This document shows, in pieces, positions 1-28,699 of a stretch of DNA of 64,000 nt. A program made the translations under genes and the position numbers. Within the stretch, counting starts at the first letter, position 1; the number at the start of each line of letters is the position of its first letter. Source of the DNA: Isoetes taiwanensis (lineage: Eukaryota; Streptophyta; Lycopodiopsida; Isoetales; Isoetaceae); the NCBI GenBank assembly GCA_021234155.1, contig JAJEKV010000164.1, forward strand, positions 279,182-343,181. Reading direction: 5' to 3'. Below the pieces are notes generated by a model. It was given only the letters and a program-made list of their open reading frames with translations. It searched no databases and was not told the origin of the DNA.

Positions 1-975
1 TGACTCGTGATGCCACCGATGCTCCCAAAAGTTGCTAACAAATTCATCAAAAGTGCACATATTTATTCTGCCGCATGCTTGCAGGTATTCTGGATCAACC
101 CAGCGAGGATGTTCTTGCAAATTTACCATTTGCAAAAAACTAGTGGAGCAGACAAAGAGCAAAACAGCTACTTAATAAGGAGCAAACAAGGAGCAGACAG
201 GGAGACAAGGAGCATGCAAACAAGGAGCAGACAGGGACGCAAGGAGCAATAAGAAGCGGACAGGGAGGCAAGGAGCATGCAAACAAGAAGCAGACAAGAG
301 GGGGAAAGAGGCAAAGACAATGAAGGCGTAGATGGCTATTTAAAGAGAAACTAGATATATATACTATATATGTACATTATATTTACATGTGTATTTTGTA
401 CATTATGCTCAGATATATAACCAATAATGTCGCTGAAGCATGTCAATAATTTTGTTCGATATAAGTACATGGCTTCAATGCGTAAGGCATCCATTTGCTA
501 TGTCTCTTCCTTCATCTTCTTATTCCGTGGGGTCTACCTTGTCTCCTCGTCCAAGATATAGACTCCATTACTTGTACTATGACATTTAATGATCTTGTTA
601 GATGCAAAGGGTATCCCCTTGCTCCCTTATTGGAAGGAGTAACTACGGGTCGAACTCATTCTTCCTCTAGGTTCTATCGTTTGTTATCCACCTTGATTGG
701 GTTCAGGCCTTGGCTTTATGAGCTTAATAACATCACTCAACCACCTGCTCATGATGAGCACGACCCCGAATGAACTGCTTCATTCATGTATGTTATGCCT
801 CTTATATGAGTTCTAAATTTCAAGCACTAGAATATTTCGGACATTAAGCTAGTTATAAGGATGTAACCAGAAGTGATACATGTGATCCATCTATCTATCG
901 CACATTTTCAATTTGGAAAGCTCTTGGCCATTTGCCTTACATGTAGATTCTAAATTCAGATAAGCATTCTCTTCT
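1..975. other. Intergenic, no gene recognised
   Basis: No recognisable protein or RNA gene is visible. Short open frames exist on the plus strand near 7-252 and 495-773, but neither resembles a known family. The first ends in a tandem repeat, so its coding status is doubtful. The stretch 340-420 is AT-rich (TATATA-type) sequence. Confidence 0.5.
175..310. repeat. Short purine-rich tandem repeat
   Basis: Imperfect tandem copies of a purine-rich unit based on AAGGAGCAGACAGGG and AAGGAGCATGCAAAC occur about three to four times with a pitch of roughly 35-60 bp. It is a minisatellite-like tract with no visible function. Confidence 0.6.
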
Positions 976-1178
976 GCATGTGCGAAATAGGCACCCCGGC
1001 ACGTTGTTTGAGTAAAATGACTGAACGTATCCACGGTGCGAAAGTGGCCCCCACACAGCGTGTGGAACAGTCAATTTCGCACCGTAGTTGCGCCCTCCAG
1101 AAATTTTGGAACTATCGACGGTGCGAAATAGACCTTCCCACAGAATGTGGAATAGTCATTTTCGCACTGTGGCCACGG
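976..1178. repeat. Hairpin repeat array A (GCACCGTGGC family)
   Basis: Copies of GGTGCGAAA and its complement TTTCGCACC alternate at about 976, 1031, 1075, 1116 and 1159. Together with flanking CCACGG/CCGTGG they make short imperfect hairpins. The same motif family forms arrays at 2769-2946 and 20701-20990. The array lies about 160 bp downstream of the stop of the minus-strand H3-like ORF. Subterminal repeats of CACTA-type transposons are organised like this, but no CACTA terminus is established here. Confidence 0.75.
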
Positions 1179-1335
1179 TCAACACTAGTAAATGAATACA
1201 CAGTCTCAATAAATAGAATAGCAAATAATTACAGAACCTCAACATTTATTAGAAGGAGAACTAAAATGTAACCATAAAGAGAAAAATATTAAAACACTCA
1301 TATATTAACAACCAAAAAAGGGTTACAAAAGGCTC

Positions 1336-1803
1336 CTAAGGGAGGCATCCACGGAAGTATCTAGCTAAGGCATAGTCCCTGTCATGCACAGTAACACGTC
1401 CTCTGTGCACACAACAGCGGACACTGTCCTCAAAGAGGCTAATTAGATGAGCCTCTGCTGCCTCTTGCAATATATCCAAGGCCTCTGCTTGGATTCTATT
1501 CATCTCCTCCTCCACCATCGGGACATAGTCTGGTGCTCTCTCCCTCCTCTTCTTCCTTGATTCCTTCCTCCTCTCAATGATGGCCTTCATCTCGTACCTG
1601 ACCATTCTAGCGAAGGCAAGCTTGGGAATCAGAGGCTGGGTGTGTGCCTGCCAGTACCTAATTTCCCTTAAAGCATGAGTGCCAGGAGGAGCACCCTTTA
1701 TCTTCTCAGGGCCACCATATCTAATACTAGGCTCCCCTTCCTTCGGCTTCCGCTTATTCCCATGCTTATCTCCCTTGGCTGCATCTCTCTCGCCTTGTCT
1801 CAA
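1336..1803 (-). CDS. Histone H3-like protein with enlarged loop 1
   Basis: An intact 155-aa ORF has a clear histone H3 fold. The alphaN region (residues 40-59) contains PGTHALREIR. Alpha1 is LAFARMVRYE (62-71). Alpha2 is LQEAAEAHLISLFED (112-126), with the Cys/His-containing continuation CCVH. Loop 2 and alpha3 are RVTVHDRDYALARYFRG (136-152). Canonical H3 has LQEA-EAYL-LFED, HAKRVT and LARR-RG at matching places. The N-tail is Lys/Arg/Gly-rich but has no ARTKQTARKS-type start. Loop 1 carries about 22 extra residues (roughly 72-103), including a strongly basic ERRKESRKKRRER run. CENP-A/CenH3 proteins also vary in loop 1 and the N-tail, but not usually by this much. The gene sits between hairpin arrays, which suggests it is transposon-borne. 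It is intact where its neighbours are broken. It could alternatively be a captured host CenH3-like copy. Confidence 0.82.
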   Translation of the reverse strand: MRQGERDAAKGDKHGNKRKPKEGEPSIRYGGPEKIKGAPPGTHALREIRYWQAHTQPLIPKLAFARMVRYEMKAIIERRKESRKKRRERAPDYVPMVEEEMNRIQAEALDILQEAAEAHLISLFEDSVRCCVHRGRVTVHDRDYALARYFRGCLP

Positions 1804-2326
1804 CTAGGAACAAGCTTAGAGGCTTTTGTGCGCCGGATCTCTTGAGTGGATTTCGCTTCGCCCTCTAAATGGCTTCAGTACCGCTCCACTTTGAACCGGG
1901 CTTCCCGTGATCATCCTAATTCTGGCGATCATGCCGGGCACCGTCGCCGATCATCTTTGGTCCTGTTGCTAGTCCCGCTTGATCATGCCGGTCCTGGCGA
2001 TGCTGATCATGTTGGTCCTGGCCGATCTTGCCGCACTTCTGAGTCTGTTTGCTGCACTCAGAGTTCTGGAAGTGCTCTTTGTTCCTGCCCCCTCACTCTT
2101 GCCAAACATTTGGGAATGCGATCATTGGCCCCAACGCCTTAGACGGGTAACTGATCCAGCGACCACCGGGCACCATGGCCTCAATCAACTGCCACAAAGA
2201 CTGGCCGTGTAGATAATTTCAATGGTCCAAAAGATGTAATCCAAATTATTACACCGAACCGGAATGGCTGCTTTCTCCGCACGACATGATGTCATCATCC
2301 TTGGCCACATGATGTGACCCGACCAT
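1804..2326. other. GC-rich spacer upstream of the H3-like ORF
   Basis: This is the presumed promoter and 5' region of the minus-strand H3-like ORF. It is GC-richer than the surroundings. Open frames here (1846-2142 and 1979-2212, plus strand) are short, and their translations are low-complexity products of the tandem repeat at 1905-2030. No TATA element is obvious. Confidence 0.4.
1905..2030. repeat. GATCATG-type degenerate tandem repeat
   Basis: Degenerate copies of a 20-25 bp unit built on GATCATGCCGG and TGGTCCTGGCGAT recur about five times upstream of the H3-like ORF. It could be a promoter-proximal minisatellite. No function can be inferred. Confidence 0.5.
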
Positions 2327-2680
2327 CTAGCTTCCTCTACCGCTTCCGCCTCGGGGTGGGGAAGGGCAGACCCAATTAGTAAAGAACCTGCTTAATGGAA
2401 CATTGAAAGCACGTTGATTATCTACAATCTCGTTTTCCTTCTCCAGAGTTGTGTCCACTGATACCACAATCTGATGTCCGAACTGGAATATTGTGGCGCA
2501 TAAAGGCCTTCGAAAAAAAACTCCTTCCCCAACAACCTTACCGAGCTCAAAGAAGGAGACCCGAGTAGGAAACACAAATAGCTGTCTCTGGTCTTTAGTA
2601 ATGACCTCGTCAAGATTATGTATGCCTTTGGGCCGCGCCTCATTTTGTGGGTTTTTAGAGCTAGCGCCTTCCATGGACAT
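2327..2680 (-). CDS. Orphan 117-aa ORF, unknown function
   Basis: This minus-strand ORF of 117 residues starts MSMEGASSKN and ends in a Gly/Ser/Arg-rich tail (PPRGGSGRGS). The middle part is mixed hydrophobic, with no signal peptide, no membrane segment and no family I recognise. It lies about 90 bp downstream, in the minus direction, of hairpin array B, and upstream of the H3-like ORF on the same strand. It may therefore be a separate gene or a 5' exon of the same transcription unit. Coding status rests on length, strand agreement and position only. A random ORF is possible. Confidence 0.35.
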   Translation of the reverse strand: MSMEGASSKNPQNEARPKGIHNLDEVITKDQRQLFVFPTRVSFFELGKVVGEGVFFRRPLCATIFQFGHQIVVSVDTTLEKENEIVDNQRAFNVPLSRFFTNWVCPSPPRGGSGRGS

Positions 2681-2768
2681 GAGCGGATTTTACCAAGGAG
2701 AAGAAATTCAAATAAGCAATATTGTCTCTCTCGATCCCATAAACCCCTAGACTAAAAAATGTTCATAG

Positions 2769-2946
2769 TAGCCACGGTGCGAAACGATATCATGCACACG
2801 CCGTGGAATGGTTGTTTTGCACCGTAGCCACGGTGCGAAATAGGGCAGTCCAAAAACTGCCGACATCCTGTTTTTGCACCGTAGCCACGGTGCGAAATAG
2901 GGCAGTCCAAAAACTGCCGACATCCTGTTTTCGCACCGTGGCTACG
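2769..2946. repeat. Hairpin repeat array B, 57-bp pitch
   Basis: Four hairpin sites of the GCACCGTAGC / GCCACGGTGC type occur at about 2769, 2815, 2872 and 2929. The last two units are nearly identical 57-bp repeats (2830-2886 and 2887-2943), each containing a small internal inverted repeat (GGCAGT...ACTGCC). The array ends 25 bp before the start of the copia 5' LTR, so the LTR element inserted next to it. It is the putative upstream region of the 117-aa ORF. Confidence 0.8.
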
Positions 2947-2970
2947 CTCCTAATGTACATACATGGAAAT

Positions 2971-3513
2971 TGTTGGATGTCAAACAATATTCTCAGATGA
3001 TGAGATCTTGCATTTGATTCCAGTGCTAGGTTGTTATCTGGCAAGTCACACTAAACCCTGTACCTTGGTTTCGATGGTCACATAAGGTGAAACATTGGTA
3101 GTTGAATATAATGGTTAAAAGGTTAAAGGCTTAAGTTGGAAGTTATCGAATATTGAAGGAAATTATATTGCTTATTTAAGATGGCAAATAGGACCATGGC
3201 AAATCGAGATTCAATGGTCGGTGAAGGCAAAACCGTCGGAGCCGAACACACTCGGTTTAACCTTAGGATCCGCTTGGCTATAAACATTCGTGAACAATGG
3301 ATCGTCTCTCGAGTGAGCCGGATCCGCCTAGTTCCGGGCCAACAAGGACAGAGTCAAATGTGCTACGATTTTGATTAATCCCAAAGCTACAGTGAAGTGC
3401 ATAATTGTATTTCTAATGGTTAAGGTTGTTATATAGCTAAGTGAAAAGGGTTGCCTTGTTGCTTAAATACTGGCATGAATAGAGAAGTTGCTTAAGAATT
3501 TTTTGAACTGACA
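2971..3513 (+). repeat. Copia 5' LTR
   Basis: This 543-bp repeat is matched by 18283-18835. The start TGTTGGATGTCA follows GGAAAT directly, and the end TTTTTTGAACTGACA is followed by a few bases and then the primer-binding site. Small indels separate the two copies, for example near 3000-3030. Confidence 0.9.
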
Positions 3514-3518
3514 ACAAG

Positions 3519-3530
3519 TGATATCAGAGC
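3519..3530 (+). other. Copia primer-binding site (initiator tRNA-Met type)
   Basis: TGATATCAGAGC lies 5 bp inside the 5' LTR. It matches the usual plant copia site TGGTATCAGAGC, complementary to the 3' end of initiator tRNA-Met, with one mismatch. Confidence 0.8.
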
Positions 3531-3547
3531 ACTCCAGGTTCAGGATC

Positions 3548-4416
3548 ATGGCCAGTAGATTTGGAGCAAGTCTACTCAATGCTGTTGAAGTCTGTAAAGG
3601 GGGACAGATTATGCATATTCTGGAAGTAGAAGAACTTTGGGAACTTGTACATCGCAATGAAGGTGAGGATAATGCAGATGGTACATCTGCTACAAGTGTT
3701 GCTGGTGCAAGCTCAACAGTAGGAGAAGTCAGAGGAGGAGGACGTCTGCAAATCCTAGTGAAGAAGGAAGCTCGTCAAATGCAACCAGAATTGCAAAATT
3801 AAAGGAGGCCAAAGGCATTATTTGCAGCAAGGTTGGACCAACTATTATGCTCAAACTCAGAGGTAAGACACCTAGGCAAATGTGGAGTTATTTGCTTAAA
3901 AAAAAAAAAAAATTATGAGGCCAGGACATCTTCACAAATTGATGTTTTGGAACCGAACTAAGGAACCTTAGGTTTCATGAGGATGATGATGTGTCGGGAA
4001 TTTTTTAAATTTGATAACATCATAAGCTGATTTAGATGGAGCTGGAGTTGTCATAAATGAAAGGTATCAAGTGCTATCCATAGCCCGGAGTTGTTTCTTC
4101 TAATGAGCATCCGCCGGTCTTGATAAGAAATGTTGCTAAGACAAGGAATAAAGCTGAAAATATGCTCAGAACTGAAGTAGAACAAAGGAAGGTAAAAAGG
4201 GAGAGTGATGAAAATAATGAAATACTCTATGCTAGGGGAAGAGGCCGAGTAGGTCCCTGCTTTTATTGCAATCTAGAAGGCCACATTAAGGCTAACTGTC
4301 CCCAAACTCCAAAAGATAATAGATGCTTTAATTGCCAAGGTTATGATCATGTAGTCGCTAACCGCTCCAGCCCAAGGGATCAAGAAAAAGGTAGAGGAAG
4401 AGGCATGATTTGCTAG
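3548..4416 (+). pseudogene. gag: Copia gag, broken
   Basis: The first ATG after the primer-binding site begins MASRFGASLL. A later ELWELVHRNEGED stretch fits the copia Gag position where DLWE/ELWE motifs are common. The frame is interrupted at about 3802 and again before 4120. The second half carries two zinc-knuckle-like motifs. CFYCNLEGHIKANC (about 4258-4299) is a complete CX2CX4HX4C knuckle. CFNCQGYDHVVANR (about 4324-4365) has lost its final Cys. In a working element this protein packages RNA in virus-like particles. Here it cannot be made in one piece. A poly-A run (3898-3911) is the likely site of one break. Confidence 0.8.
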
Positions 4417-4542
4417 GGGCGAGGGGTATAATTCAGAGGTAATAACTCAAGGGGAAGAGGAAACCTTAGGAACAAAGGCAAAGGAAGACCAACTGCTATA
4501 AACATAACCAGAGAAGCAGAAGAAGAGGAGGCTGAAGATGAA

Positions 4543-6079
4543 ATGGACGAAAATGCAGAGGTAACTAATTCAAAAATCTTTTCTGTTTCTGAAAGAACTT
4601 CTAAAGATGATGATAATCTATTTGTCATAGATAGTGGAGCTGAAAGAAGCGTGATAAAATCCAAGTCAAAGCAAAGGAGAAGACTAGCAAAATTTCAGCT
4701 TTTGTTTCAATGGGAGATGGGAAATTAGAAAAGGTTGAAGAAGGAGAACTTTTGGAATTATATGACTTGGAAGGAAAGATTGTTATGTTAGAGAAAGTAT
4801 TTTGTGTTCCTAATATAGTGAAGAACCTTGTAGATCTTGGATATCAAGTAGTGTTTGAAAAACTATTTTGTAAAGTGATGATGCATAATAAAATCAAGTT
4901 TCTTGGGAAATGTATTGGCAAACTCTTTGGTTTCTATAATGATAAGGCTGATGCAATCAATACAGTAAGAATACCTTCCTTGAAATTATGGCATGAGAGA
5001 CTTGGCCATACTCATGCAAACAATATTAACTATATGATTAAAAGAGGGCTGATTATAGGGGAAGAAGATAAGGTTGAAAACCTTAAGTGTGAGGGCTGTT
5101 TATTGGGAAAAAACAGTAGATTACCATTTTCCAAGCAAGCAAAAAGGGCAAAAGAAATCTCGGAGATTGTGCATAGTGATCTATGTGGACCACTAAATGT
5201 TAGAAGCATTCATGGGAGAAAGTACTTTATTACCTTTACCAAGGATCAAGCTTTGAAGCATTCAAAATATTTCAAGCTGAAACAGAAAGACAAACTGGTA
5301 AGAAAATTAAATGCTTGAGAACTGACAGAGGAGGTGAGTTTGTTTCTTACAGATTTAACAAATATTGCCAAAGTCTTGGGATTAAAAGGCAACTTACATG
5401 CTCACACACTCCTCAACAAAATGGAGTAGCAGAGAGGAAGAATAGATCACTGCTTAATGCAGTGAGATCTATGATCAAGCATACTGGCCTGCCAAACTTT
5501 CTGTGGGAGGAAGCACTCAAATCAGCAGCAAGTATTCAATAAATCTGTTGAGAATGGAGAGGATCAGCTAGATGTGCATCATGAGGATAATGTGTTGAAA
5601 AACAAGAAAAGGAGGACAGAGGCGGAAAAACTTAAGGATGGCTTGAACATTGATACAAATAAATATGGAAGAAGTGATGAAGGAAAAAGTAGGAGATTTG
5701 CTGAAGAACCCGAACTTGAACAAATTCTAGCCATTCTAGAACCTAATGTACCTTCCTGCTATGAAGAATCTATGAGTGCTGATGACTCATTATGTTGGAA
5801 AAAAGCCATGGAAGAGGAAATGAATACCTTTCAAAGGACACAAACTTATGAGTTTTGAGAGACCTAGTGGAAAAAATATTGTGAAAAACAAATGGATATT
5901 TAAACTCAAACCAGAGTCTGATGGAAAGGGGCAGAAATACAAGGCCAGATTAGTGGCCAAGGGATTCTCTCAATGGCATATGCAAATGCAAAAAACCTTG
6001 AGGTCCATCATATGGACGTTAGTACTGCTTTCTTGAATGCTCAACTAGATGAGGAGATCTTTATGGAACAACCACAAGG
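4543..6079 (+). pseudogene. pol: Copia pol, 5' part: protease, integrase, RT N-terminus
   Basis: The protease motif LFVIDSGAERSVI (about 4618-4656) keeps the DSGA catalytic core. The GAG-pre-integrase motif LWHERLGHTHAN and the CEGCLLGK zinc-binding part lie at about 4985-5110. Integrase core motifs are HSDLCGPLN (first Asp, about 5173), RTDRGGEF (second Asp, about 5318) and HTPQQNGVAERKNR with the catalytic Glu (about 5404). RT begins with CWKKAMEEEMNTF and WIFKLKP...KARLVAKGFSQ (about 5794-5975), and continues in another frame to the strand just before the palm. The frame changes at least five times. The RT is cut at 6080 within EQPQG-FEV, and the sequence resumes at 17069. Confidence 0.9.
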
Positions 6080-6622
6080 TGTTTGGGGGTCCAGGTTCGG
6101 GAACTCTGCGAGATGACCCTCTGGAGGACCCTTGGATCAAACAGAGAATTCGGTAGAATGTGTCACGCTGGGACGGTAAAAGGAACAAAGGAAAAGGGAA
6201 AGAGAGAGAACAAAGAAAACAATAAGAACACAATGATGAGAACGAAACTCTTTGATATCAATGATGATACATGAGCTCTCGCAATAGAGAGAAAATAGAA
6301 TGGAGATAAGACCAAAAACTCATCTAAAAACTCGAGTGCTAGCTCTACTCATATATAGTACAATGACCTCTGGCCCAATATAGACACTTTGCAGATCTCG
6401 GTGCCGACTCCTGGAAGGAGGCCTGATTTGCAGGAATGTTGGCGGTGCCTCTTGAGGTGTCTGAAATCACGCTGACGCTGACGGCCCGTCACTTGTCTGT
6501 TCGCCTCTTCTTTGTCGCGGGCGGCGTGGCCTTCTGCATGGTCTGCTGCGTGGTCTGCTGCTTGGTCTTCTGGCCCTTTGATGACCGACCGGACTGGACC
6601 AGGCTCCTTGTCGGGACTAACA
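6080..6622 (-). repeat. Gypsy 3' LTR (left copy)
   Basis: This is the left copy of the 540-580 bp LTR. On the plus strand it starts TGTTTGGGGGTCC and ends GACTAACA. It contains a TATA-like TACTATATATG on the minus strand (6350-6360). It differs from the right copy by many indels, notably at 6520-6560, where GTCTGCTGCGTGGTCTGCTG is expanded. Confidence 0.88.
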
Positions 6623-7779
6623 CTCCCCCCCACCAAACGACACTCAATGAGGAGAAAAGGAGGAACGGTTTCAGATGGCGGGAACCCATGAGTCTGAAAT
6701 TCATCCTGGCGAGTATGAGGACGGGGGCCATTATGATAGTTCCCAATGAGATCTTGGCGTGCCTGAAGAGCTTCGGAGGTGTGGAGACCTATGGCGTTAT
6801 GAGCGTCAATGAGAAACCCAGAGTGCACCATTTCTTCAAGGGCACGGTGTGCTTCAGCAGGTACAAACTGGCATTCCATGAGAAGGCAGGTCTGGAGGCC
6901 GAAGGTACTGACGCTTGCATTCGGGTTGCAATAATAGATAGGACGCCCTCTGGCAAGAGAGCTCAGCAAAAAGCACTTTAAGGCAGCACAAAAACCTGCT
7001 TGGCGGTGAACAGATGAATCCGGGGAACTGGCAGCATGTTCCAAAAAGAGATCAAGGCCAGAGATAGCATGTGTGGGTGTCTCCCAACCTCGTGCATTAG
7101 GGATGTAGATCCAATTTTCGGTATGGTCCAAAGTAGCGCCATTCTCCCAATTAGAGCATCGAACAAAACGCGTATCCCAGCGGAGATCCGTGGAGATCTG
7201 AGGAGGAGTCCACCCAGCATGGCCTTCCAGGACCTTAGTCCAAAAGGGAAGATGCTTATCCGAGGTGAGATACCTGGGGCGTGCGGGTGCATGTAATGAA
7301 GCATACGGAGATTGCGCCATGCCCGTGGGTGTGGGCAGCTGGGCCTGCTCCCTGAATTCACGAACAAGGTCTGCATCCAGAGCACGGCACCACTGTTCCC
7401 AATCTGAATCTGAGAGCATGGTATAGACTGGAGGATTAACCCAACCCGTGGGTATAGTCTTGCTGTCCAGAAGGGCACGCAGGGAGTTGTAGCCATCCAG
7501 GTGCTGCATATAAATTTGTGCAAACGGAAGATCCTCAGGATGGGCTAAATTCTTCCGCACCTGTTCCAACGTTTCAGCTTGCCATAGAGGTAGGTGATGA
7601 GCAAGCTTAGGCATGTACTCAGTGCATAGAGTGTTGGACCGCGCAGGATCCTGTAAATACGGATTGTTTTCCAATAACAACCAGTGGGCATGAGGGTTTC
7701 CCTGAAAAATGCGATGTGCCTCATCTCTGAATTTATCCTGTGTATCATCCAGATAGAAATCATGAAAAATATAAGCCAT
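6349..7779 (-). CDS. Gypsy-borne extra 3' ORF, unknown function, runs into the 3' LTR
   Basis: This open 476-codon minus-strand frame (start MAYIFHDFYLDD) lies between integrase and the 3' LTR. The first 385 or so residues are ordinary, well-mixed protein sequence, rich in Trp and His (for example YLTSDKHLPFWTKVLEGHAG). They have no membrane segment, zinc finger or catalytic motif that I recognise. The frame then passes through the polypurine tract and into the LTR, where the composition turns to charged repeats (DQAADHAADHAEGHAARDKE). That tail may be chance. Athila/Tat-type gypsy elements often carry an extra ORF here. It stands out as long and unbroken in an element whose gag and pol are broken. 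Confidence 0.55.
   Translation of the reverse strand: MAYIFHDFYLDDTQDKFRDEAHRIFQGNPHAHWLLLENNPYLQDPARSNTLCTEYMPKLAHHLPLWQAETLEQVRKNLAHPEDLPFAQIYMQHLDGYNSLRALLDSKTIPTGWVNPPVYTMLSDSDWEQWCRALDADLVREFREQAQLPTPTGMAQSPYASLHAPARPRYLTSDKHLPFWTKVLEGHAGWTPPQISTDLRWDTRFVRCSNWENGATLDHTENWIYIPNARGWETPTHAISGLDLFLEHAASSPDSSVHRQAGFCAALKCFLLSSLARGRPIYYCNPNASVSTFGLQTCLLMECQFVPAEAHRALEEMVHSGFLIDAHNAIGLHTSEALQARQDLIGNYHNGPRPHTRQDEFQTHGFPPSETVPPFLLIECRLVGGSVSPDKEPGPVRSVIKGPEDQAADHAADHAEGHAARDKEEANRQVTGRQRQRDFRHLKRHRQHSCKSGLLPGVGTEICKVSILGQRSLYYI
6623..6636 (-). other. Gypsy polypurine tract
   Basis: Read on the minus strand, TTGGTGGGGGGGGAG stands directly before the TGTTAGTC start of the 3' LTR. This is the expected place and composition for a plus-strand-priming polypurine tract. 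It also lies inside the long 6349-7779 reading frame. Confidence 0.85.
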
Positions 7780-7799
7780 AGGCCGACAACGCTTAAGAT

Positions 7800-10090
7800 G
7801 ACCAAATCGGAATCCTCACGATTGGATTTGATCAAAGACTAAGAGGGCACAGAGTAAGCCTTTGTCTTCAATGGAAAGGTCCGGCCAGATCTGGAGAAAA
7901 TCCGTGCTACCCAGGGGCTGCGTATTAATCTTGCCGTTGGCCGAGTACCACTTGAGAAGAAAAAGGTGGCGTCGGGCAACCACATAATCCAGATAACTGG
8001 AAGGAGTACAGAAGTCCGTAGGAATGCGGAGAGCAATATCAATATATACCTCATGTTGACTCTGGGCTTCTTCCGCAAATTGAATAGCTTGCTTGAGTTG
8101 ATGCTCTAAGTCTCGGAGCTGATTATCTTTGTCGCCAAAGAAGACGGACTCTGATTACTTCTGGTAGAGAGCGTGGCTGTGAAGATGAAGGCACGGGAGT
8201 GGAGCTTTGAAGCCGAAGGGTGGCAATTTCTGCCATCAATTATCTTACGCTACGAAGCGGTGAGTTGAGCCTCGGAGAGGCGTGAGCCGACCGGCGGCGT
8301 GGAAAGTTGGTCTTCAGAGAAGAGATGCGCATATTGTGCTCAGCAAAGTTCTTGGACTTCGGTTGGTGTAGTGCGGAGAGAGCTCCATGTACATGGTGTG
8401 GAGATCTGCAAGGGCTTGATCCCTTGTCGACAAAGGAGTTTATCCGTGATCCTTGTTGGTAGCCAACAATTCTGAATAGTGGGCTGTAACTAAGCACGGT
8501 GATCGTGGCAGGGCTAGTCTGTTCTGCTCAGCTTTTAGAGATTCATGGGCACGTAAAAGAGCCTGCATTAGCTTCGTTGAAGCTTATCTTCAAGAGATTG
8601 AACTTCCGTGGTGGCGGCAGCATGGAGATCCCCGTGAACCGCCCCGTGGCCTCCATGTAAGCTTGCATGCCATTCATGAAGGTTTCTTGCAGTCCACGAA
8701 GCTTAAGGACAACCTTGTACATCCTCACGATATTGATCTGGGCCTGCCGAAGGTGAAAGTCGCGGGGCCTCGTTGGCGGTTAGACTGTGACGTCTGAGAA
8801 ACATGATGAGAATTTGAGGGCGTGGTCTCCATGGATGAAGAGGACACAGGAATAGGTTTGTCTTGATTTTGAGCGTGACCATTCACCAGGGGAAGGATGA
8901 GGGCGTGAAGTCTCAGCCCGATGGTTTTTAAGAAGGGAATGGAAGGTTTGGTGGGTGGATGCTTGAGAAGTGGTGGGGGACCCAGGACTGGATAGAGGGA
9001 CACAATGATGGATGACAGTTTGGAGGTGAGCACCCACAGCAGTTTCAAAGCCAGAAGAGGGGGCTGCTCGGATGCGATCAATTTCATGAAGAAGTCGGAG
9101 GAACAAAATCTGTGGCCAATCAATAGGATGAGTGGAGTGGATGGCCATAATAACGATGTTGAAAAACTGTTTATTGATGTGGGTATTCTTGATGGAATAC
9201 CCATAGAACTTGCGCCATAGAAATTTAACAAAGTTCGTGAGTCTATGAGTGTTGGCTTGATAAGGAGGTTGGCCATACTGAGAGACATCCTGTTCCTGTA
9301 AGGCAGCCCAAGATAAAGAAGACTTGTGAAGAGAGACTTGGAATACCTGAGAAAGCAGAACCGGGGTAAGCAAAATTGTGGTCCGACGACTTCGGTGGCG
9401 TGATCCGCCGCTGATGTTGATCATGTGAGCGACAAACCACCGAGTTGATTCGATTGGGGGGCAGGAGTTCCCGCCGAAGAATTCATATGCCTAGTGGCGC
9501 TTCTGCAATAAATAGCGACTTGGACCTTCCAAAGCATCGCGAAAGGTGGGAGTGGAAAAACTAACAGACTCAAAAAGAGTCGGATCCCTTGGAGCAGTAT
9601 CTTGAAGAGTAGGGAATTTTGGTGAAACAGCCATGGCAAGAAACGAAGGAAGGAAGCGCAAGAGCGATGGAAAGAAGCCGAGGGTGGAGAGCTAAGAGGA
9701 AAAACGAAGATAGACGGTAAAGGTTTTAGGGGCTTAAGTTGTGGTTTAAAGGGCATGATGAGAAGGAAAAAGGGTCGTTGATGAGGGCCAAGTGGCAACA
9801 GATCCGGCGGGGACGATTGAGAGGCAAAAATTTGGCTAAGTCCCGTAGTAGTGAAGGGAAGCGATGAACCGCATGGAGATAAGTCGTGAAGGAAATCCGG
9901 TGAGGGATTTGACAGCCAATGGCAAGGTACAAATAATAATGGCCGACGGGCGAAAAGGAAGGGATGGCAATTAATGCCGTAACTCCGGCGGATATCATAA
10001 AGAAGAATGTGTCGCATAAAGGCCATGGCTAGATATGCGGCGCGAGAGAAATTCAGATTTAGAAAGAGCCTTGCATTGCAAACCACATTA
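7800..10090 (-). pseudogene. Gypsy extra region, fragmented ORFs
   Basis: Several overlapping minus-strand frames suggest one or two former proteins broken by frameshifts. The clearest stretch (about 8780-9424) includes TNFVKFLWRKFYGYSIKN and MAIHSTHPIDWPQILFLRLL. This style resembles the plant transposon ORFs found in Athila-like elements, but I cannot name the family with certainty. A second stretch (9421-10086) begins MVCNARLFLNLNFSRAAYL and becomes Pro/Leu/Ser-rich. No membrane protein or envelope is claimed. The region lies between the integrase and the 6349-7779 ORF on the same strand. Confidence 0.5.
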
Positions 10091-10544
10091 GCAATTTTGG
10101 GAGTGGTCCACGCCTACAGAGCTCCAAGCCGTTGGGCTATATAAGACGCAAAGCTGGTCGGCCGAGACGCCAACATATGGAGCATGGACGGCCAAATGTA
10201 CTATGCCGATGAGTTGCCGTGAATGGATCACTTGCAAGATGAACGCCGCGATGGACCTCGGAAATGTCGCATACCGCAGATCCGGATGGACGGCCGGTGT
10301 GGCGCAATGGCGAGCACCACCGACCAAGACCACTCCTATCGAGGTGGTAATTCATCTGGCTACGGGAGCCCCGAAACCACCGCCACTACACGGTGCTCCG
10401 CATCACCTCTCTTCCAAACCCTGAGTAGGGGTTCTTTTAACTTAGGATTTTGTAAATAGGGCTCGCCCATAAGCGGATGTATATATGGGCAATGCCCACC
10501 TTTTGTATGTCGCCACTAATATAATATAAATATGTCGCTAGTCA
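10091..10544. other. Spacer between gypsy integrase and the extra ORFs
   Basis: There is no recognisable gene. An AT-rich patch (10515-10535, ATATAATATAAATAT on the plus strand) lies just downstream of integrase. It could serve as a TATA region for transcription of the extra minus-strand ORFs, but nothing beyond composition supports this. GC-rich short frames on both strands at 10137-10459 shadow each other. Confidence 0.35.
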
Positions 10545-13480
10545 CTATCGTGGAGTCGAATTTTGTTGTTGATCATGTGTATGAACGCTTGTATCTTCAG
10601 ATAAAATTGTTTGAGGCAAAACCATTAACCAGTTGTAGGTAATGGAGTGCCATCTAATTCGCCCAGCTTTGAAAACACTTTGGGTTGAACAACTTGAATA
10701 ATTTGATAAGGACCAAGCCACCAATTTTAACTTGCCCGAAAATTTTTTGTAACGAGAATCATAAAGCAAAACCAAATCACCTTCTTTAAAAGTTTTGGTC
10801 TTCGGATGTTTGTCATGCAAGGATTTTTTATAATGCTGGCCATGAAGAACCGAATATAAGCATCTCGCCTAAGTTCATCCAATTGTTCAAGTTGATAAAC
10901 TCGTTCTTGAAGAGCTGCAGGTGGATTACATGTGGTGGCGAGTTGGAAACGAAGTGTCGGAAGAACATATTCAAAGGGCATCAAAGCTTCTTGACCATAA
11001 ACCAACTTAAAAGGAGTATGACCAGTAGCAATCGTGAAACAGCAGTTGTAAGCCCAAAGAACAGTGGGTAACTTTTCTTGCGAATCCGTGCGAGAGGCAT
11101 CACAGATTTTCTTCAGAATAGTGATGAGAGTCTTGTTTGTGCTTTCAGCCAAACCATTTCCTTGAGGATAGTAAGGTGTGCTTTTGCGGTGATGTATGTG
11201 CAAATAATCCGTCAGCTCCTTGATGGTGTGATTAATGAAATGGACGCCACGATCACTAACAAGTTCCGTGGGACAACCAAAACGCGTGATGATGTGCGTG
11301 TAGAGAACCTTGGCCGGGCCGGTCGTTGTCAGAAGGCACAAGCCTCGCCCATTTGGTGCCGCAATCCGGTGATGACCAGAATGTAGCGGGCATGGGTGTG
11401 CCAGCTACGGAGGATCCATGGGCCCCACAAAGTCCATTCCCCATTTGCTGAAGAGAAGGCGGCGGCGACCGGCGCCAACGGGAGTGCGTCACGGGCAGGC
11501 CGACCTCCACACGCCGGATGCACATCACACGTGCGGCGGGAGCATGGGCATTCTTGAAGAGCGTAATGCCGTAAATAGCATGCGAGAAGGATTTTGCGCG
11601 GGGCGGGTGTCACTATAGAAATGATTCACCACCAAGCCCCCTCATGGGCTTGTCGAACGATATTGGGTGCTTCATGAGGAAGAACACAGCGTCTGAGGAC
11701 CATATCCTTGCCGCATTTGTACAGATGGCCCGCAACCATGGTGTAGTCACTGACCTCACCGGAGAAAACCGACGGTGGGCGGGATCAAGCTTTTCGGGAG
11801 AAAGCGTGGGATCTTCTGATGGAAGAGCACCGGTGAGAAGATACTGCTGAAAGTGATGGAACCAATGGGGCGTGGCCGTGATCAAAAACAGCTGTGCGTC
11901 AGGAAAGGCATCTTAAACACCCGTGGAGGGATCATCTGTATGGATGCGTGAGAGATAATCTGGGACAACATGAGATTTGCCAGCTTTATGAACGATTTCA
12001 AAAGAAGCGAATTCTTGCAAAAGAAGGACCCAACGAGTAATCCTGTCCGTGGGTGTGGACTTGTTGATCAAATAGAGAAGAGCCTGATAATCAACAAAGA
12101 ACTTGATCTGACTGCCCAACAAATAATGACGGAAGCGTTGGACACAAAAAATTAAACCCAAGGCCTCCCTCTCGGTGGCAGAGTAGTTGCGCTCAGCAGG
12201 ATTAAGTTTTCTGCTGGCATAACGGTTGGGTTTATCTGTAATGCGTCATATGCTTGAGAGAGAACAACACCAATAGCAAACGCGAGACATCGACATGAAC
12301 ATGGAAAGGCTTGTCCCATTGAGGAGGAACAAGCACTGGGGCCTGAAAAGCAAGAGCTTCAACCGGATGAAAGCGAAGATCACGGCTGGGAATTCCAAGC
12401 CCAGTGGATTCATCACCCGTGAGTTTATGAATGGGATCGACAAATAGCGCAAGTCCGGGGAATGAAGGTGGAATAGTAATTTACCTTGCCCACGAAAGAA
12501 CGTGTCTCCTTGATATTAGATGGTGCTTGAGCCTTAAGCACACAACAACCGATTTTAGCGGGATCCGTGGTGATACCTTCTTCTTACCTACATGACCCTA
12601 ACAGAACACCGAGAGGTGACGGTGCATTTCTCCGTGATTTAGACTAATACCACTGACTCATCACATTTCTAAAAGACTAGCTCTAACTTGTCCGGTGATC
12701 ATCCATGGAACTCGTAGGCGAAAAGTCATCTTGAAAGATTTGGAGAAAGGGTTTCTCCTTCATATAATCGTGAAAACCGAGAGCATGATGCGCTGAAACG
12801 TGGATGGAGAGTTGGATAAACCAAAAGGAACCACCTTGTAGGCAAAAGTGCCCTACCGGGGTGGTAAAGGTAGTCTTGAGTTGATCCGCCTCTTTGATTG
12901 AAATTTGATTGTAGCCCCGAAAAACCATCCATGAAGGAGTACATTTCATGACCAGCAACCTCTTCCGAACCCAGTGCATGAAGGGAAGCGGAAGTGATCA
13001 CGCCGCGGGCTCGATTGAGTTTATGATAGTCCACGCAGACGGATCTTACCGTTGTGTTTGAGAGCAATGACGACGGGGCTCACCCATTCGTAATGTTTGA
13101 CCTCATAAATCAAGCTTCCAAGCATCAATTTCGGTCTTGACACGGTCCGCGATAATTGGGGTTGAGCCGTCTTCGTCGTTGATAGACGGGGGCGTGCATC
13201 CGGGTTTGGTAGGAATGGTGAGTTCCCCAAGTCTTTGTTGATACCCCAAGATCATTATAGCTCCGTGCAAAAATGTGTTTGAATTTTTGAATAGTGTGAT
13301 GGCGCGTCGCCATAGGTGGTCCGGGTGATTTGCGGCTAGGCGGGGCGGGCTGATTGTTGCCAACGTCCACAATCTCCAGTGGAACAACTTCTTTGTCTTG
13401 AACAACGTGAGCAGGAGGTTGAAACATGACAGGATGAGCTGCATTTTGTGTGGTGAAGAAAAGCGGTTGCTGAGCGTCAT
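10545..13480 (-). pseudogene. pol: Gypsy pol: RT, RNase H, integrase (broken)
   Basis: Read on the minus strand. RT spans about 13.2-12.7 kb, with YEWVSPVV, YSFMDGFSG (FxDxFSG catalytic Asp), YNQISIKEAD and TTFTTPVG, and FLQIFQDDF as the palm DD motif. RNase H spans 12161-11913, with FFVDYQALLYLI and PDYLSR. The integrase core spans about 11341-10890, with GCPTELVSDRGVHF (second catalytic Asp) and YPQGNGLAESTNK (catalytic Glu). The end of integrase follows (KTFKEGDLVLLYDSRYK, about 10800-10740). The RT-RH-IN order is Ty3/gypsy. At least six frame changes or stops exclude a functional polyprotein as written. GC content is high between 11.3 and 11.6 kb, where the zinc-binding part should be. 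Confidence 0.88.
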
Positions 13481-13643
13481 CTAGCAGTGGTTTGCTTCAT
13501 GACGGCATGGACGCCCACCGTTTCGGAGGAAGTTGTTGGAAAAATGGTCGGTCTTTGATGTGATTGCAAGGAGCCGGTAAGGGTCGAAAGCTGCAAAAGC
13601 GCGTACCGGCACAGTCTGATCCAGAGTCATCTCACACCAAGGA

Positions 13644-16250
13644 TCAAAGATATTCGTGTAGATGAAAGAGGCGACTCGCAGTGGGAGCCCCGAACATGAT
13701 AGATATTTTGGGCGTCGTCGGAATCGGTGTCGGAGAGAGAAGGTTCGACATGTTCAACAGAAATGATCTTGCCGGTTTCCAAATCCATGGAACCATCTCG
13801 AATGAGCTACCGGTCCATGGCCCAAGAATAATACTTTTTGCCGACGGAGAAAAAGGTCCGGCCACCAACATTTCATATAATCAACGGATCTTCCTTCCAA
13901 ATACCAAATTCTAGAGGGAATTGAAGTTCGCCTGTATTGATGTGAAGAAGGGGTGTGACGCCTTGAGGGCGCGTGATATGACCATTGGCCAACTTGATGT
14001 CATAAGGGCACGGTGTAAAGTTGTTTGATGCCCAATTGCTTTCTCGGGCTTATCAAGAATGAGATTGACAAAGACTTCCACCATCAACTCATTACGATTG
14101 ACTTGGTGATTGCCCACCGCATGCATGCAATCGCGGGTGTTGAGGTAGCCAACGCCCCAACCAGAATAGTGGGAAGGGGGAAGCCGGTCCTGAGAGAGCG
14201 TGAGTTTCAAAATGGTGGCTAGACTCAACGGAATCTTGATTTTTGCAAGTTCTTCCCCGGAGTTCCAAGGGAACATGTGAAAACAGAAGCGCGGATCCAA
14301 GGGAGCAGGAGTTGTAGGTAATCGACCCAGCAACTTCTTGGAGAAGCTCCACCTCAACAATGTTAGGATATTGCCGAGCCGAGGAGTGTTGAGATGACGT
14401 AGGGGGCTCTTGACGCCGAAAGCCAGCTGTGGTTTAGTGTACATTGGCAAGCGCGGCGCGCCCATTGCATAAGGTTGAGAATGCTCGCCGGACCTTTGGC
14501 ATGACATGGGGCATAAGAGTATCCAAAGCCGGAGAAAATGGACCTTTACCGCCGCCATGAGGGATCGGTTATTTGATCAAAGGCGGGTTGTGTGTCATTA
14601 GGGAATTATGGTTAAGGGCGTGAAGCCCCGGTTCGATGTGAGACCAAACCAACCCAATTGGGACAGCTTGACCCGAGGATTGAGAGCTTGGTAAATTATT
14701 CCTGAGCTTGTTGATCCACAGGAGGAGTTGGACGGGCGAGCTGGTTGATACCTTTGTTGTTGAGGCACGCTGGTGGCTTTGGAAACGGGGCGAGGCCTTG
14801 TTTGCCATTAGCAATCCAAAGTTGATAGGCCGTGAGGCGATCGACGTGGTTTGATTCGCGCCGTGAAGTTGGACTTGAACTTGAGGAAGTTGAGGGCACG
14901 CCGCGGGTGGTATGACCCCATTCCGCATAATGATAAAGAATCGGGCTTAGAAGGATCAAAAGGGGCCGTTGCTTTGTCCCCGTGGCTGCTGAGATTGTTG
15001 ATACTGTTGAGGAGGTTGTGCTGGAAATTGCTGAGGCGCGTATGAGAGTTGTTGCTGAGGTGTGGTCTGTACTTGATAAACCATCTTTTGTCTGAAGGGT
15101 GTAGGATGAGTACGAAAGTGCATTCTTCCGTGGCATGATTGCACATGTTGCGATTTACAAATGAGGGGGGCCATTGAGGAATTGCACTCATTGGCCAAAT
15201 GGCCTTGATATTTGGAAGATGTGGCACCAAATTTGACCGCGTTGTGGATTGGAGTGTTGAGACCAATCGGCGCCCGAGGAACCATGACAGGTGGGATGAA
15301 GGGTAGCTCTTGGAGAGCCACGCCTCTGGGAGGAAACATTAACCCCGAATGATTGACGAGTTCGATGGCCCGCCTCTCCAAAGTCTTGGGGTGCGTGTGA
15401 TACGTCATGAGACGAATAGCCTGAGGAAGTCCCTCGTAGAAACCGGCGAGGATCCGGCTTTGGGGGCGGGTACTCTTGGAGTTTGCCGAGGAGTATGTGA
15501 AGACGATCCACAAAATCCCGGGTGGACTCCGCTGGCTCTTGGGTGAAGATCATTGAGTTGCTTGAGAAGAAGTTGATCATCATCGTGGTGCCATAATGGG
15601 AAAGGAAAGCGTCTTTATTTCTCGGCTCAGCTTTGTTTCCAATGGCTTTTGTTTGCCATGAGCCATTGATGAGGGATCCACGCAGGCGTGGTGGAAAAGA
15701 TGTGGAACTCCGGTTGAGGTTGAGCGTGACCATTTAGGACAGCCGCAGCCTCAAATTCTTCCATGTGGGCTTGAGCACTTTGATCCAATGGTTTGCCTTT
15801 TAGTACGCCAAAAGTGGGATAGGTCAGTTTTGAGAGTTTGAAAAGAAGATTGTGGCGGACCTTGGCATAGAGCGGCTGAGTAGGGACGAGGCACATAATG
15901 AGGTGGTACAGCCATAGTCTCGGGATGGTGTGTCGAGGGGCGTAAAACCTTGAGAGTCTTGAAAAAGAGCATCCCGTGGGGAAGGTCCTTGAGAGCTTTG
16001 TTCGTGAGGTTTGAGATCGAGAGTGTAAACCGGAAGAGTATGTTGAAAAGAAGGGGATTGGGGATATGTCCCGGCTGGGGGGGCCGAAGAGACACACTGG
16101 ATAACCCATTCGTCGAGGGAGAGATGATGGTTGTGAAGGCGCGGGGAGTATGGCGGAGGAGATATGAATGTAGGCACTCGGGAGTGTGGAAATAAGCCGG
16201 GAGGGGTCAAAACGAGTGCATGATGGGGAGACTGAGGTTGTGAACAATGT
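13644..16250 (-). pseudogene. gag: Gypsy gag and protease region (broken)
   Basis: On the minus strand from 16.25 kb. A Pro/Ser-rich N-terminal part is followed by a capsid-like segment with FLSHYGTTMM and STRDFVDRLHILLGKLQ (about 15.6-15.48 kb). Next is a degenerate zinc knuckle, KYQGHLANEC (about 15.2 kb), and then a Gln/Pro-rich stretch (QQQLSYAPQQFPAQPPQQ, about 15.06-15.0 kb). Downstream, 14.56-13.9 kb includes ELMVEVFVNLILDKPEKAIG, placed where a protease or its linker should be, but a clear DTG/DSG was not found. Repeated frame changes make this a pseudogene. The order fits gag-pro upstream of the pol part at 13.5-10.5 kb. Confidence 0.72.
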
Positions 16251-16491
16251 TTACACGCACTGGAGAGCTAGGACGAGGAGTGAACACGAGGAGTAGGTGG
16301 CGCCGACCGGGCGTGGAGCCGAATATGGCCTCCCTCAATATCATAACGGTCATACATATCTCGAAAGCAACTTCGCGACGCTGATGGCGCTCCAATCGAC
16401 GCGTCGTCGGCTAAGAAGCTCCTCCGGTGAAAGCTCCCCTAGGACATGGGCAAAGAAGGAATGAAAAGAAAATCGCACCAGTTAGCCACGG

Positions 16492-17068
16492 CGGTTTGGG
16501 GGTCTGATTTGGGAACTCCTCGGCATACCCTCCGGAGGACCCTTGATCAAACAGGGAAATCCGTAGTCGTGGTCACAGCGGGATTTGCAAAAGGAACAAA
16601 GGAAAAGGGAAAGAGAGAACAAAAGAAAAACAATAAGAACACAATGATGAGAACTAAAACTCTTTGATATCAATGATGATACATGAGCTCTCAATAGAGA
16701 AAATATAATGGAGATAAGACCAAAAACTCATCAAAAACTTCGAAAGTGCTAGCTCTACTCATATATAGTACAATGGCCTCATGGCCCAATATAGATACTT
16801 GCAAATCTCGGTGCCGACTCACGGAAGGGAGGGATTCTAAGAATGTGTGGCGGTGCCTCTTGAGGTGAGAAATCACGTGGCACCCGACGGCCCGTCACTT
16901 GTCTGTTCGCCTCTTCTTTGTCGCCGGGCGCCTTCCTTCACGTGGTCTGGCTGCTTTGTCTTCTTTGGGCCTTTGATGGTGACACGGACCTCGGCCGCGG
17001 GCTCCTTATTCTTGACTGGTCCTCCCGGTGTGCATGAATAGTCTGTACCGGGGCGTACAAGACTAACA
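16492..17068 (-). repeat. Gypsy 5' LTR (right copy)
   Basis: This is the right-hand LTR copy, which is the promoter-side LTR for this minus-strand element. It matches 6080-6622 over its whole length, with many small indels. It ends GACTAACA at 17068, immediately before copia RT resumes. Confidence 0.87.
16760..16770 (-). promoter_or_regulatory. TATA-like element in the gypsy 5' LTR
   Basis: The minus strand reads TACTATATATG, conserved at 6350-6360 in the other LTR. Its position inside the LTR suits the core promoter of the retroelement. No experimental support is implied. Confidence 0.5.
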
Positions 17069-18237
17069 CAAAGGCTTTGAGGTTGGAATCAATATGGTAT
17101 GGAGATTAAAAGAGGCAGGTCTATGGACTCAAACAAGCACCAGAACAATGGTACATTTGTATGGATGACTATCTCAGAAAAAAAGGCTTTAATAAATTGC
17201 AAAGTGATGGCAATATTTATGTTTTAAAACAAAGTGGCAATTTTTGCATCATTGCACTATATGTCGATGTTTACATCATGATTTCGAACACTATGGAGTG
17301 TCTAAAACAGAAAGCAAAAGCTATGTTAAAGGAGAAATTCAATTAAAGAAATTCTTGGGAATTGAAGTGCAAAAAGAAATGGGGGCAACAGAAAACTCAC
17401 ACTCACACAAACCGCAAATATTCAAAGCATACTTGGAAAGATTTGGAATGAATGAGTGTAAGGCAATTGACACATCTTTGGTACCTGGTCATTCTATATC
17501 GAGGGATATGTGTCCTAATTACGCTTATGAAGAAAATGGAGGAAATACCATCCACGTGGAATTACTAGGATGTTTGTTATACATTAGCAATTGCACACCG
17601 ACGACATTGACTTTCTCTCTCCACCCTCAACGGCGGATACACAAATAATCGGGCAAACCACACCGGATAGCGAAGAAAAGAATTATGAGGTTTCTCAAAA
17701 GAACACAAGATCGGGGCATATGTTACTCTAATGATGATTTGATACTAAAGGGATATTGTGATGCAGTTGGGGCTCGAGACCTGAGACAAATGAAAAATCT
17801 ACATCGGGGTTCTCATTGATGCTTGGAGGAGCGCCATAATATGGAAATCAAAGAAACAGTCTAGTACTGCCATGTCTTCAGCTTGGTTGAATATGCGAGC
17901 CACTACACTTGCAGCCAAAGAGATTGTCTGGGCGAGAAGGTTACTAAATGAGCTAGGCATAATGCAAATGAAGGCAACCATCCTACTATGTGATAGTCAA
18001 AGCTGCATTGCTATTATAAAAAATCCTGTCTTGCATCAAAGGACCAAGCACATTGAGCTACATATGCATTATATCAGAGAAATGGTTGCTAAGAAATATG
18101 TATCAGTTGAATTTATAAGCACCCAAGATCAAGCTGCAGACATATTTACAAAGGCTCTCACACAAGTTAAGTTCTGCAAGTTCAAAGAATTACTTGGTAT
18201 TGCAGGTTCAATACTTCAAAAAGCAGGAATCTCTTAA
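17069..18237 (+). pseudogene. pol: Copia pol, 3' part: RT C-terminus and RNase H
   Basis: This continues the RT cut at 6079. The GFEV stretch is followed by a KQAPEQWY-type motif and MDDYLRKKGFNKLQSDGNIY. The palm motif appears as YVDVYIMIS (about 17260), where copia elements have YVDD, so the second catalytic Asp is lost. KKFLGIEVQKE lies at about 17346. RNase H covers about 17870-18237, with AAKEIVWARRLLNELG, LLCDSQSCIAI, RTKHIELHMHYIRE and STQDQAADIFTKAL. Frames change near 17340, 17650 and 17870. It ends about 45 bp before the 3' LTR polypurine tract. Confidence 0.9.
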
Positions 18238-18271
18238 AGTTCAGTCAGTTATCTGAATTAGAGAATATATC

Positions 18272-18835
18272 TGATGGGGGAATGTTGGATGTCAGGACAA
18301 TATTCTCGAGATGATGATCTTGCGCCAAGGTTGTTATCGGAAAGTCACACTAAACCACTGCACCTTGGTTTCGATGGTCACATAAGGTGAAACATTGGTA
18401 GTTGAATATAATGGTTAAAAGGTTAAAGGGTTAAGTTGGAAGTTATCGAATATTGAAGAAAATTATATTGCTTATTTAAGATGGCAAATAGGACCATGGC
18501 AAATCGAGATTCAGTGGTCGATGAAGGCAAAACCGTCGGAGCTGAACACCTCAGTTGCTTAACCGCCGGATCTGCTTGGCTATAAACATCTGTGAACAAT
18601 GGATCTGTCTTTGAGTGAGCCGGATCCGCCTAGTTCAGTTCAACAAGGACGAGTCAAATGTGCTACAGTTTTCGATTACTCCCAAAGCTACAGTGAAGCG
18701 CATAATTGTATTTCTAATGGTTAAGGTTGTTATATAGCTAAGTTAAAAGGGTGAATGTTAATGGATTATACTTGCCTTGTTGCTTAAATATTGGCATGAA
18801 TAGAGAAGTTGCTTAAGAATTTTTTGAACCCGACA
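18272..18835 (+). repeat. Copia polypurine tract and 3' LTR
   Basis: TGATGGGGGAA (18272-18282) is followed by the LTR start TGTTGGATGTCA at 18283. The LTR ends at 18835 in GAACCCGACA. It is about 10 bp longer than the 5' copy, mainly from an insertion near 18751-18770. Confidence 0.9.
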
Positions 18836-28190: not shown

Positions 28191-28229
28191 TCGGGATTTC
28201 ACAGAGGGGCACGTAAAATGGAGCGGTTG

Positions 28230-28680: not shown

Positions 28681-28699
28681 AACTCCTTCGATTTTTCCA

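Follow-up and report, generated by a model that had tools for sequence, protein, structure and literature searches.

A divergent histone H3 domain at the C-terminus of a fusion gene in a high-copy mobile element of Isoetes taiwanensis

Results and Discussion

Features of the Locus

The window, that is, the whole stretch of 64,000 nucleotides of Isoetes taiwanensis DNA that was analysed, contains one copy of a multi-gene mobile element that carries an H3 domain as the 3′ part of a fusion gene. The features of this copy and its surroundings, together with the genes of the sister copy B, are listed in Table 1.

Table 1. Features of the window and of element copy B (window coordinates unless copy B is named)
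Feature	Position	Strand	Remark
Element continuation downstream of H3	1..1021	-	3′ end outside the window, at C979:277056
Hairpin array 1	1022..1181	.	on the 3′ side of the H3 stop codon
H3 domain, 3′ part of fusion gene	1336..1803	-	open for 155 codons; 23-residue basic insert in loop 1
Decayed middle part of fusion gene; in copy A, a linker that is Q/H-rich and basic	1804..2326	-	frames broken; open in copy A
N-terminal part of fusion gene, MSMEGASS..., ATG 2680	2327..2689	-	frame ends early; start as in copy A
Hairpin array 2	2768..2945	.	~90 bp upstream of the fusion-gene ATG
Inserted copia-type LTR retrotransposon	2971..18836	+	ends read by eye
Second gene, ATG 20630, frame to ~20735	19347..20630	-	match present in 18 of the 20 copies fetched
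Hairpin array 3	20702..20988	.	directly upstream of the second-gene ATG
Breakpoint of homology to sister copies	21092..21096	.	5′ part of element absent; DUF7869 pseudogene beyond
Decayed DUF7869 gene (PF25273)	21848-22423	-	best piece 21848-22126, E value 2.5e-18
Gene A (no Pfam match)	copy B 692-1624	sense	followed by an array
Second gene	copy B 2076-3259	sense	followed by an array
Fusion gene with H3	copy B ~3900-5291	sense	further arrays follow
Three long frames	copy B 10305-7608	opposite	candidate transposase

Sequence and Predicted Fold of the H3 Domain

The motifs ALREIR, LQEAAEAHLISLFED, RVTVHDRD, and LAR--RG follow one another in the 155-codon frame (1803..1336; sequence ...PPGTHALREIRYWQAHTQPLIPKLAFARMVRYEMKAIIERRKESRKKRRERAPDYVPMVEEEMNRIQAEALDILQEAAEAHLISLFEDSVRCCVHRGRVTVHDRDYALARYFRGCLP) in the same order as in H3, and the plus strand is interrupted by stops. 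The C-terminal 115 residues matched histone H3 in Pfam (Histone, PF00125; E value, 3.1e-18) with 66.6 bits against a curated cut-off of 26.4, and this was the sole match to the H3 profile below an E value of 0.25 among the 578 frames of at least 50 amino acids in the window. A sequence search of the PDB gave H3s with a best E value of 4e-17, aligned in two blocks flanking a gap; among the 60 displayed of 174 matches, 59 carried the name of H3 or of one of its variants, and the remaining one was called just a “histone domain-containing protein.” With P0001 as the sole query, a protein search yielded 20 candidates, none of which was scored, and the profile search (7990 proteins) is mute on nearer relatives because the 120 listed were all tandem H3s. 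The preliminary description had reported an intact 155-residue ORF with H3 motifs. The open frame, the motif order, and the Pfam match bear this out, and the HMM check that it suggested gave a clear histone sequence match rather than no histone hit. The frame is nevertheless not a complete gene and lies on the minus strand; it is intact merely as a frame, since it opens with TTG directly after a stop and has its first ATG at residue 67, within the fold.

Between α1 and α2, 23 extra residues, many of them basic (RRKESRKKRRER), take the place of the standard short loop 1. The canonical N-terminal tail (ARTKQTARKS...) was found neither in the window ORF nor in copy A, a sister copy described below. 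In a four-row alignment, residues C110, H113, R116, T118, D123, L126, and R83 (H3 numbering) were kept, and R129 of the H3–H3′ bundle was replaced; the residues kept are positions at which H3 contacts H3′ or DNA.

A single-sequence AlphaFold model (pLDDT 57) placed helices at residues 40–55, 58–89, 95–133, and 139–151, in the order αN–α1–α2–α3, and a Foldseek search with this model returned unrelated proteins and nothing at E ≤ 0.001. The second model, which was built with 14 H3 rows, had a pLDDT of 55; with H3 rows in its input, Foldseek returned five nucleosome entries at E values of 0.1–5.9 and none at E ≤ 0.001. The structure prediction proposed in the preliminary description thus agreed in the order of the helices and failed in model quality and fold search. 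Since both models were poor and the fold searches were not significant, the predicted histone fold of the domain rests on its sequence.

Structure of the Fusion Gene

In copy A (L010), a 373-codon frame opens at MSMEGASS and reaches the middle of H3; after one stop, which falls inside the H3 domain, 84 further codons lead to the H3 end. On the evidence of copy A, H3 thus forms the C-terminal domain of a ~455-residue protein, which consists of an N-terminal region, a Q/H-rich and then basic linker, and H3 at the end. The open part that holds H3 in copy B is 217 codons long. In the window, stops and frame changes separate the 5′ part of the gene from H3. Pfam gave no match for the N-terminal piece of the window (2327–2689), and no DNA-binding domain was found by Pfam in the N-terminal region of copy A. 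A separate H3 exon, with the splice acceptor CTTGTTCCTAG immediately before TTG at 1804, was also considered and was dropped because the copy A frame is uninterrupted at the matching position.

Copies of the H3 Domain in the Genome

The I. taiwanensis assembly (1.66 Gb, 1110 contigs) was searched with the H3 protein. At least 150 matches, including the window's own, were scored from 5498 candidates, with identities from 100% (the window itself) to 47%. The domain thus matches at least 149 further places in the genome, of which the next-best are up to 94% identical. By hand count, 27 of the 150 listed matches (window included) span residues 1 or 2 to 155 without a stop, and many of the H3-domain copies listed carry stops. 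The 20 places that ranked directly below that of the window were fetched with ~10 kb each. All 20 match the window element around H3 when oriented by H3, and in 18 of them the match extends to the second gene with the order preserved (L013 and L015 partly); in L024 and L027 it does not. An extra sample of six diverged H3 stretches contained five close relatives, most of them with broken frames.

The alternative named in the preliminary description, a single host CenH3 gene at a syntenic locus, does not agree with these copies, which lie in an element. A further possibility is that the protein is derived from CENH3 and steers the element to centromeric chromatin or imitates such chromatin. The LIP motif, AEAL..LQEAAE, and the lengthened loop 1 recall plant CENH3, and a small tree groups the domain with CENH3 at 82%, although on a very long branch among nine sequences. 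Over the fold, the window domain is 47% identical to plant CENH3 and 48% to canonical plant H3; over the whole alignment, the values are 43% to H3 and 39 and 36% to CENH3. Three close copies show 46–48% to CENH3 and 47–51% to H3. Given these identities and the distribution of the 150 listed matches over many contigs, we consider a CENH3-derived protein of this kind improbable, and a centromere-targeting role is not favoured on sequence grounds.

Ends and Length of the Element

Copies A (C37) and B (C1076) are homologous over ~10.2 kb (A 7907–18162, B 7843–18040) and share a sharp 5′ end beyond which their flanks differ. The 3′ end is missing in copy A and lies at 18470 in copy B. The ends consist of CATTAGAGTTTTTTTGAGGTCAAWTAAGGGCC and its inverse, which form 32-bp inverted repeats, and the 3′ end of the window element was located at C979:277056–277077, 2126 bases left of the window. 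With up to three mismatches, the 32-base end occurs at 443 sites in the genome (215 forward and 228 reverse), and a reversed control gave none. Among the stretches fetched for their ends, the 5′ end was read in 8 of 11 and the 3′ end in 4 of 7. The element measures ~10–13 kb in three copies: copy B is 10.6 kb, and two pairs of ends that bracket H3 span 12,956 and 12,997 bases (C930 and C937). Longer pairs bracketing H3 (14.7, 18.4, 32, and 38 kb) presumably contain insertions. No target-site duplication of at least 2 bp was found in the 10 end pairs whose flanks were read, two of which bracket an H3 match; a 1-bp match of the flanks was seen in three of the 10, which is the chance level.

Facing 32-bp ends were also found 3.5–4.5 kb apart at several places, where the room is insufficient for the full gene set or H3. 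These short elements (e.g., C985:599253–603200, C907:29229193–29233034, and C982:377227–380733) share the 32-bp ends, lack a target-site duplication, and are likely H3-less derivatives. Because the same ends bound elements unable to hold H3, H3 appears dispensable in cis for movement. At C1078, three element ends in the same orientation (20463666, 20476658, and 20489652) lie 12,992 and 12,994 bases apart, which would fit a tandem arrangement of full elements.

The transposon-like ends and the many copies speak against an origin from a host gene in decay or from the remains of a large DNA virus, with neighbours placed by chance. Giant viruses carry H3, according to the accessible part of the report (PMC8015243), and the palindromes that separate the genes look virus-like; scans of viral contigs confirmed no relative, and either origin is very improbable.

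Gene Content and Hairpin Arrays

The three opposite-strand frames of copy B may encode the transposase. By eye, they show H-x4-H followed by glutamate and no C-x2-C, and Pfam gave no match at E ≤ 1 for these ORFs (7608–10305). Among all element pieces searched except H3, nothing in Pfam was better than an E value of 0.19. For the second gene, none of 6088 protein-search candidates was scored.

The sequence GCACCGTGGC occurs 20 times in the window with at most one mismatch, and the mean of shuffled sequences was 1.28. Each array unit has the inverted arms ACGGTGCGAAA and TTTCGCACCGT around a loop of 30–31 nt (eight units), and the arrays folded better as RNA than their shuffles, with z scores from -1.95 to -6.92. 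Inner hairpins within the loops were rejected as a general rule, as just four of the eight units reached p < 0.05, on the plus strand. At least two arm motifs (at most one mismatch) lie within 1 kb 3′ of H3 in all 20 fetched copies and on both sides of H3 in 12 of the 20; the control of 20 loci shuffled once each gave 0. The hairpin arrays are parts of the element, located between its genes.

The preliminary description had proposed a mobile element that carries its own H3 variant, and this is supported by the copies, the ends, the arrays, and the signs of constraint given below. Its extent was misjudged: the transposon-like unit seen between two arrays is a multi-gene element of ~10–13 kb and not of 1.9 kb, with the arrays lying between genes. 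Likewise, the hairpin repeat noted beside other orphan genes is present there, but the gene concerned (19347–20735) is the second gene of the same element.

Selection on the H3 Domain

Substitution rates were calculated for 20 close copies, i.e., the window and 19 others; L027 was dropped for internal deletions, and stop codons were gapped in six rows (L010, L015, L017, L018, L019, and L021). The pooled dN/dS was 0.41, with 0.23 for αN–α1, 0.35 for α2–α3, 0.45 for the tail, and 0.65 for the insert, and the whole-tree omega was 0.68. Among variants shared between copies, nonsynonymous changes showed a weak deficit (17 to 14, 0.49 of neutral, p 0.036), which was smaller among singletons (66 to 36, 0.73 of neutral, p 0.084). 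This pattern, which is weak alone, would fit constraint while the element is mobile and decay afterwards.

A diverged relative, L075, was compared with four copies over two core segments, giving a pN of 0.22–0.24 and a pS of 0.94–1.00, with synonymous change saturated over ~38 synonymous sites. Its insert is likewise basic and nearly the same length as that of the window, and L075 also has a stop. From these comparisons, the H3 core looks to be under constraint.

A Second Family of H3 Fusions

A search with canonical H3 scored 150 matches of 9022 candidates. Fifteen of these, at 96–98% identity to plant H3, are likely the host's own H3 genes. At least 135 further matches have identities of 71–86%; 129 of the 135 are without a stop, and 49 of these 129 lie in open frames of at least 400 codons (hand transcription). 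Two examples, L079 (20–1411, C1045) and L080 (3–1397, C1018), encode proteins of ~410 residues with a layout like that of the first family, in which a different N-terminus is followed by a basic linker and then by an H3 close to the canonical one (Pfam E values, 1.7e-40 and 1.5e-41). The N-termini of the two families showed no similarity beyond the basic linker and H3. Between L079 and L080, dN was 0.085 and dS was 1.05, a ratio of 0.08 (0.07 for the N-terminus and 0.06 for H3). The same next frame begins ~200 bases downstream of both, with a stop within that of L080 by eye, and the downstream stretch common to the two is 78% identical and contains GCTGACGTCAGC. This second fusion family may belong to another mobile element as one of its genes, or else it may be a huge gene family.

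These results bear on whether the H3 is passive cargo, i.e., a host H3 that was captured and amplified by a DNA transposon and is useless to it. A precedent exists in fungal hAT elements with hundreds of H3-like copies, as far as the available text of the source goes (PMC6710886), and the omega of 0.68 among close copies, the many copies with stops, and the H3-less elements with the same ends agree with it. Against this, the H3 core is conserved in L075 despite saturated synonymous change (~38 synonymous sites), the H3 of copy A is part of a fusion with its own N-terminus, and the second fusion family has a dN/dS of 0.08 across the whole protein. Passive cargo is therefore judged unlikely.

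Proposed Function of the H3 Fusion

We tentatively propose that the divergent H3 protein of the element is incorporated into the nucleosomes that cover the copies of this element, with the transposon-made N-terminus replacing the H3 tail. The fusion protein would pair with host H4, enter nucleosomes, and be brought to its own element DNA, perhaps through an N-terminal region that reads the hairpin arrays. Nucleosomes of this kind would be without the ARTKQTARKS start and without lysines 4, 9, and 27 in their normal setting, and they would be poor substrates for H3K9 methylation, which feeds DNA methylation in plants. The weaker silencing might then allow a copy to be expressed long enough to move. 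Tail loss would in this way act against silencing.

Because the contact residues are kept, we argue that the domain would still pair with H4 and dimerise like H3, and this retention, together with the replacement of the tail in both families, is why self-made nucleosomes with a foreign tail are favoured as an anti-silencing device. The notion of a missing lysine 9 is not clean, since the L080 linker keeps an ARKS motif. Loop 1 of H3 contacts DNA, so a normal nucleosome could be impeded by the insert at this site.

The same insert, RRKESRKKRRER, would fit an altered DNA contact in a different role, in which the histone fold belongs to the transposition machinery as an architectural DNA-binding domain, and the fusion, like a TnpA-type accessory protein, binds the arrays and the transposase complex outside host nucleosomes. 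The arrays are integral to the element and repeated within it and could be the binding sites, and the replaced R129 of the H3–H3′ bundle agrees with such a role. Most of the H3–H4 and H3–H3′ contacts are kept, however, which goes beyond the needs of a mere DNA binder, and the N-terminal region of copy A has no detectable DNA-binding domain. We regard this role as doubtful, ranking it second and not far behind self-made nucleosomes.

It is conceivable, and again put forward with reserve, that in one plant genome at least two abundant families of mobile elements have H3 among their regular working genes, placed C-terminally in fusions whose N-terminus replaces the tail, and that the elements' own nucleosomes set the chromatin state of their copies and do not merely evade that of the host. 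Transposons are known to encode proteins by which silencing marks are erased or blocked; a transposon that supplied the histone itself, with the marked tail exchanged for a domain of the element, would show another means by which a parasite can own its chromatin. It would also become testable whether selfish DNA can give rise to H3 variants or drive them, and whether it was ever the source of host variants such as CENH3. For annotation, “histone H3” matches in such genomes can be transposon genes.

Comparison With Known Transposons

A transposon-borne H3 is not new, since fungal hAT transposons of the Dothideomycetes Pseudocercospora fijiensis and Pyrenophora tritici-repentis have captured H3, as described in the accessible part of that study (PMC6710886). 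The fungal element has terminal inverted repeats (TIRs), is ~9.5 kb long, occurs in hundreds of copies (784 in P. fijiensis), and has 8-bp target-site duplications (TSDs) and a hAT domain; its H3 is a captured transcript or retrocopy, killed by RIP in P. fijiensis and very recent in P. tritici-repentis (PMC6710886). An H3-like sequence in a high-copy TIR element is common to both systems. As far as the available portion of that source allows the comparison, the Isoetes H3 differs in being diverged, fused behind another N-terminus, extended by the 23-residue insert, and conserved in a diverged relative, and the Isoetes element differs in having no 8-bp TSD in 10 end pairs and no DUF659 or hAT transposase match in Pfam. 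What is new is that the H3 is fused, carries an insert, and has stayed conserved in a diverged relative, and that there is a second fusion family with signs of constraint.

Spy elements have TIRs and no TSD, and the Isoetes element resembles them in both respects; it is far larger and has several genes. Repeat arrays are known from CACTA elements. In the CMCT transposons (CACTA/EnSpm, Plavaka, Lanisha, and kin), the ends are mostly CA..TG, according to the part of the review that is open (PMC12730594). The ends of the Isoetes element, CATTAG...CTAATG, are of this form, and its arrays and the opposite-strand ORFs with H-x4-H and then glutamate (by eye) add to the likeness. Unlike the CMCT elements as that text presents them, it shows a TSD of 2–5 bp in none of the 10 end pairs, no Pfam transposase match, and no C-x2-C by eye. 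It was not filed under CMCT because of the missing TSD, despite the CA..TG ends.

Among transposons with other histone sequences, Helentron-Cq-32A of Culex contains H4 and H15 (linker histone) fragments with a stop, a frameshift, and indels, in eight copies, as the accessible section reports (PMC4067079). It is similar in that a transposon carries histone sequence; as described there, this sequence consists of fragments, is not H3, and is not a gene of the element. Transposon genes thought to act on chromatin include the VANDAL anti-silencing protein, SET-domain HarbingerS, and TET/JBP elements (PMC12730594, open part). Like these, the Isoetes element would encode a factor affecting its own epigenetic state; in that account, the known factors target DNA or histone marks or their control, whereas the Isoetes element would supply the histone itself. 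No plant transposon with H3 as a fused, constrained gene was found in the literature searched, whose coverage leaves out most subscription journals, and the main text of PMC13317346 contains no mention of “histone.”

Decay of the Window Copy and Neighbouring Sequences

The window element copy is dead. Its copia-type insertion has repeats at 3053–3451 and 18353–18752, inner repeats at 6178–6247 and 16589–16658, and a gag_pre-integrs match (E value, 3e-10), and a further element is apparently nested inside it; many sister copies are continuous across this site without the insertion. At 21092–21096, all listed copies but L016, whose match begins further in, continue in similar sequence. These positions were considered as a CACTA end and rejected, since none of 15 listed copies shares the window's upstream sequence (12 bases compared). 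CACTA ends elsewhere in the window were likewise dropped, as no array-bracketing pair has matching ends plus a TSD. The DUF7869 pseudogene was rejected as a part of the element because it is matched in none of the 20 fetched stretches, which extend at most ~0.4–1.4 kb past the junction; a literature search found no publication on DUF7869.

Another hairpin family, TTTCTCGACTCGCGAGTCGAGAAA, occupies window positions 25100–32750, around and within apparent introns of a NIF/FCP1-type phosphatase gene (phosphatase domain at 30954–31430; E value, 4e-8) that also has a VDGQHSVRAA motif. This region is perhaps an element of similar layout. A PPR_2 repeat in the window had an E value of 2.4e-5, below the Pfam cut-off. 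A large inverted repeat extends over 37270–55740, with arms of ~9 kb in blocks that are 71–100% complementary and a centre near 46.5 kb.
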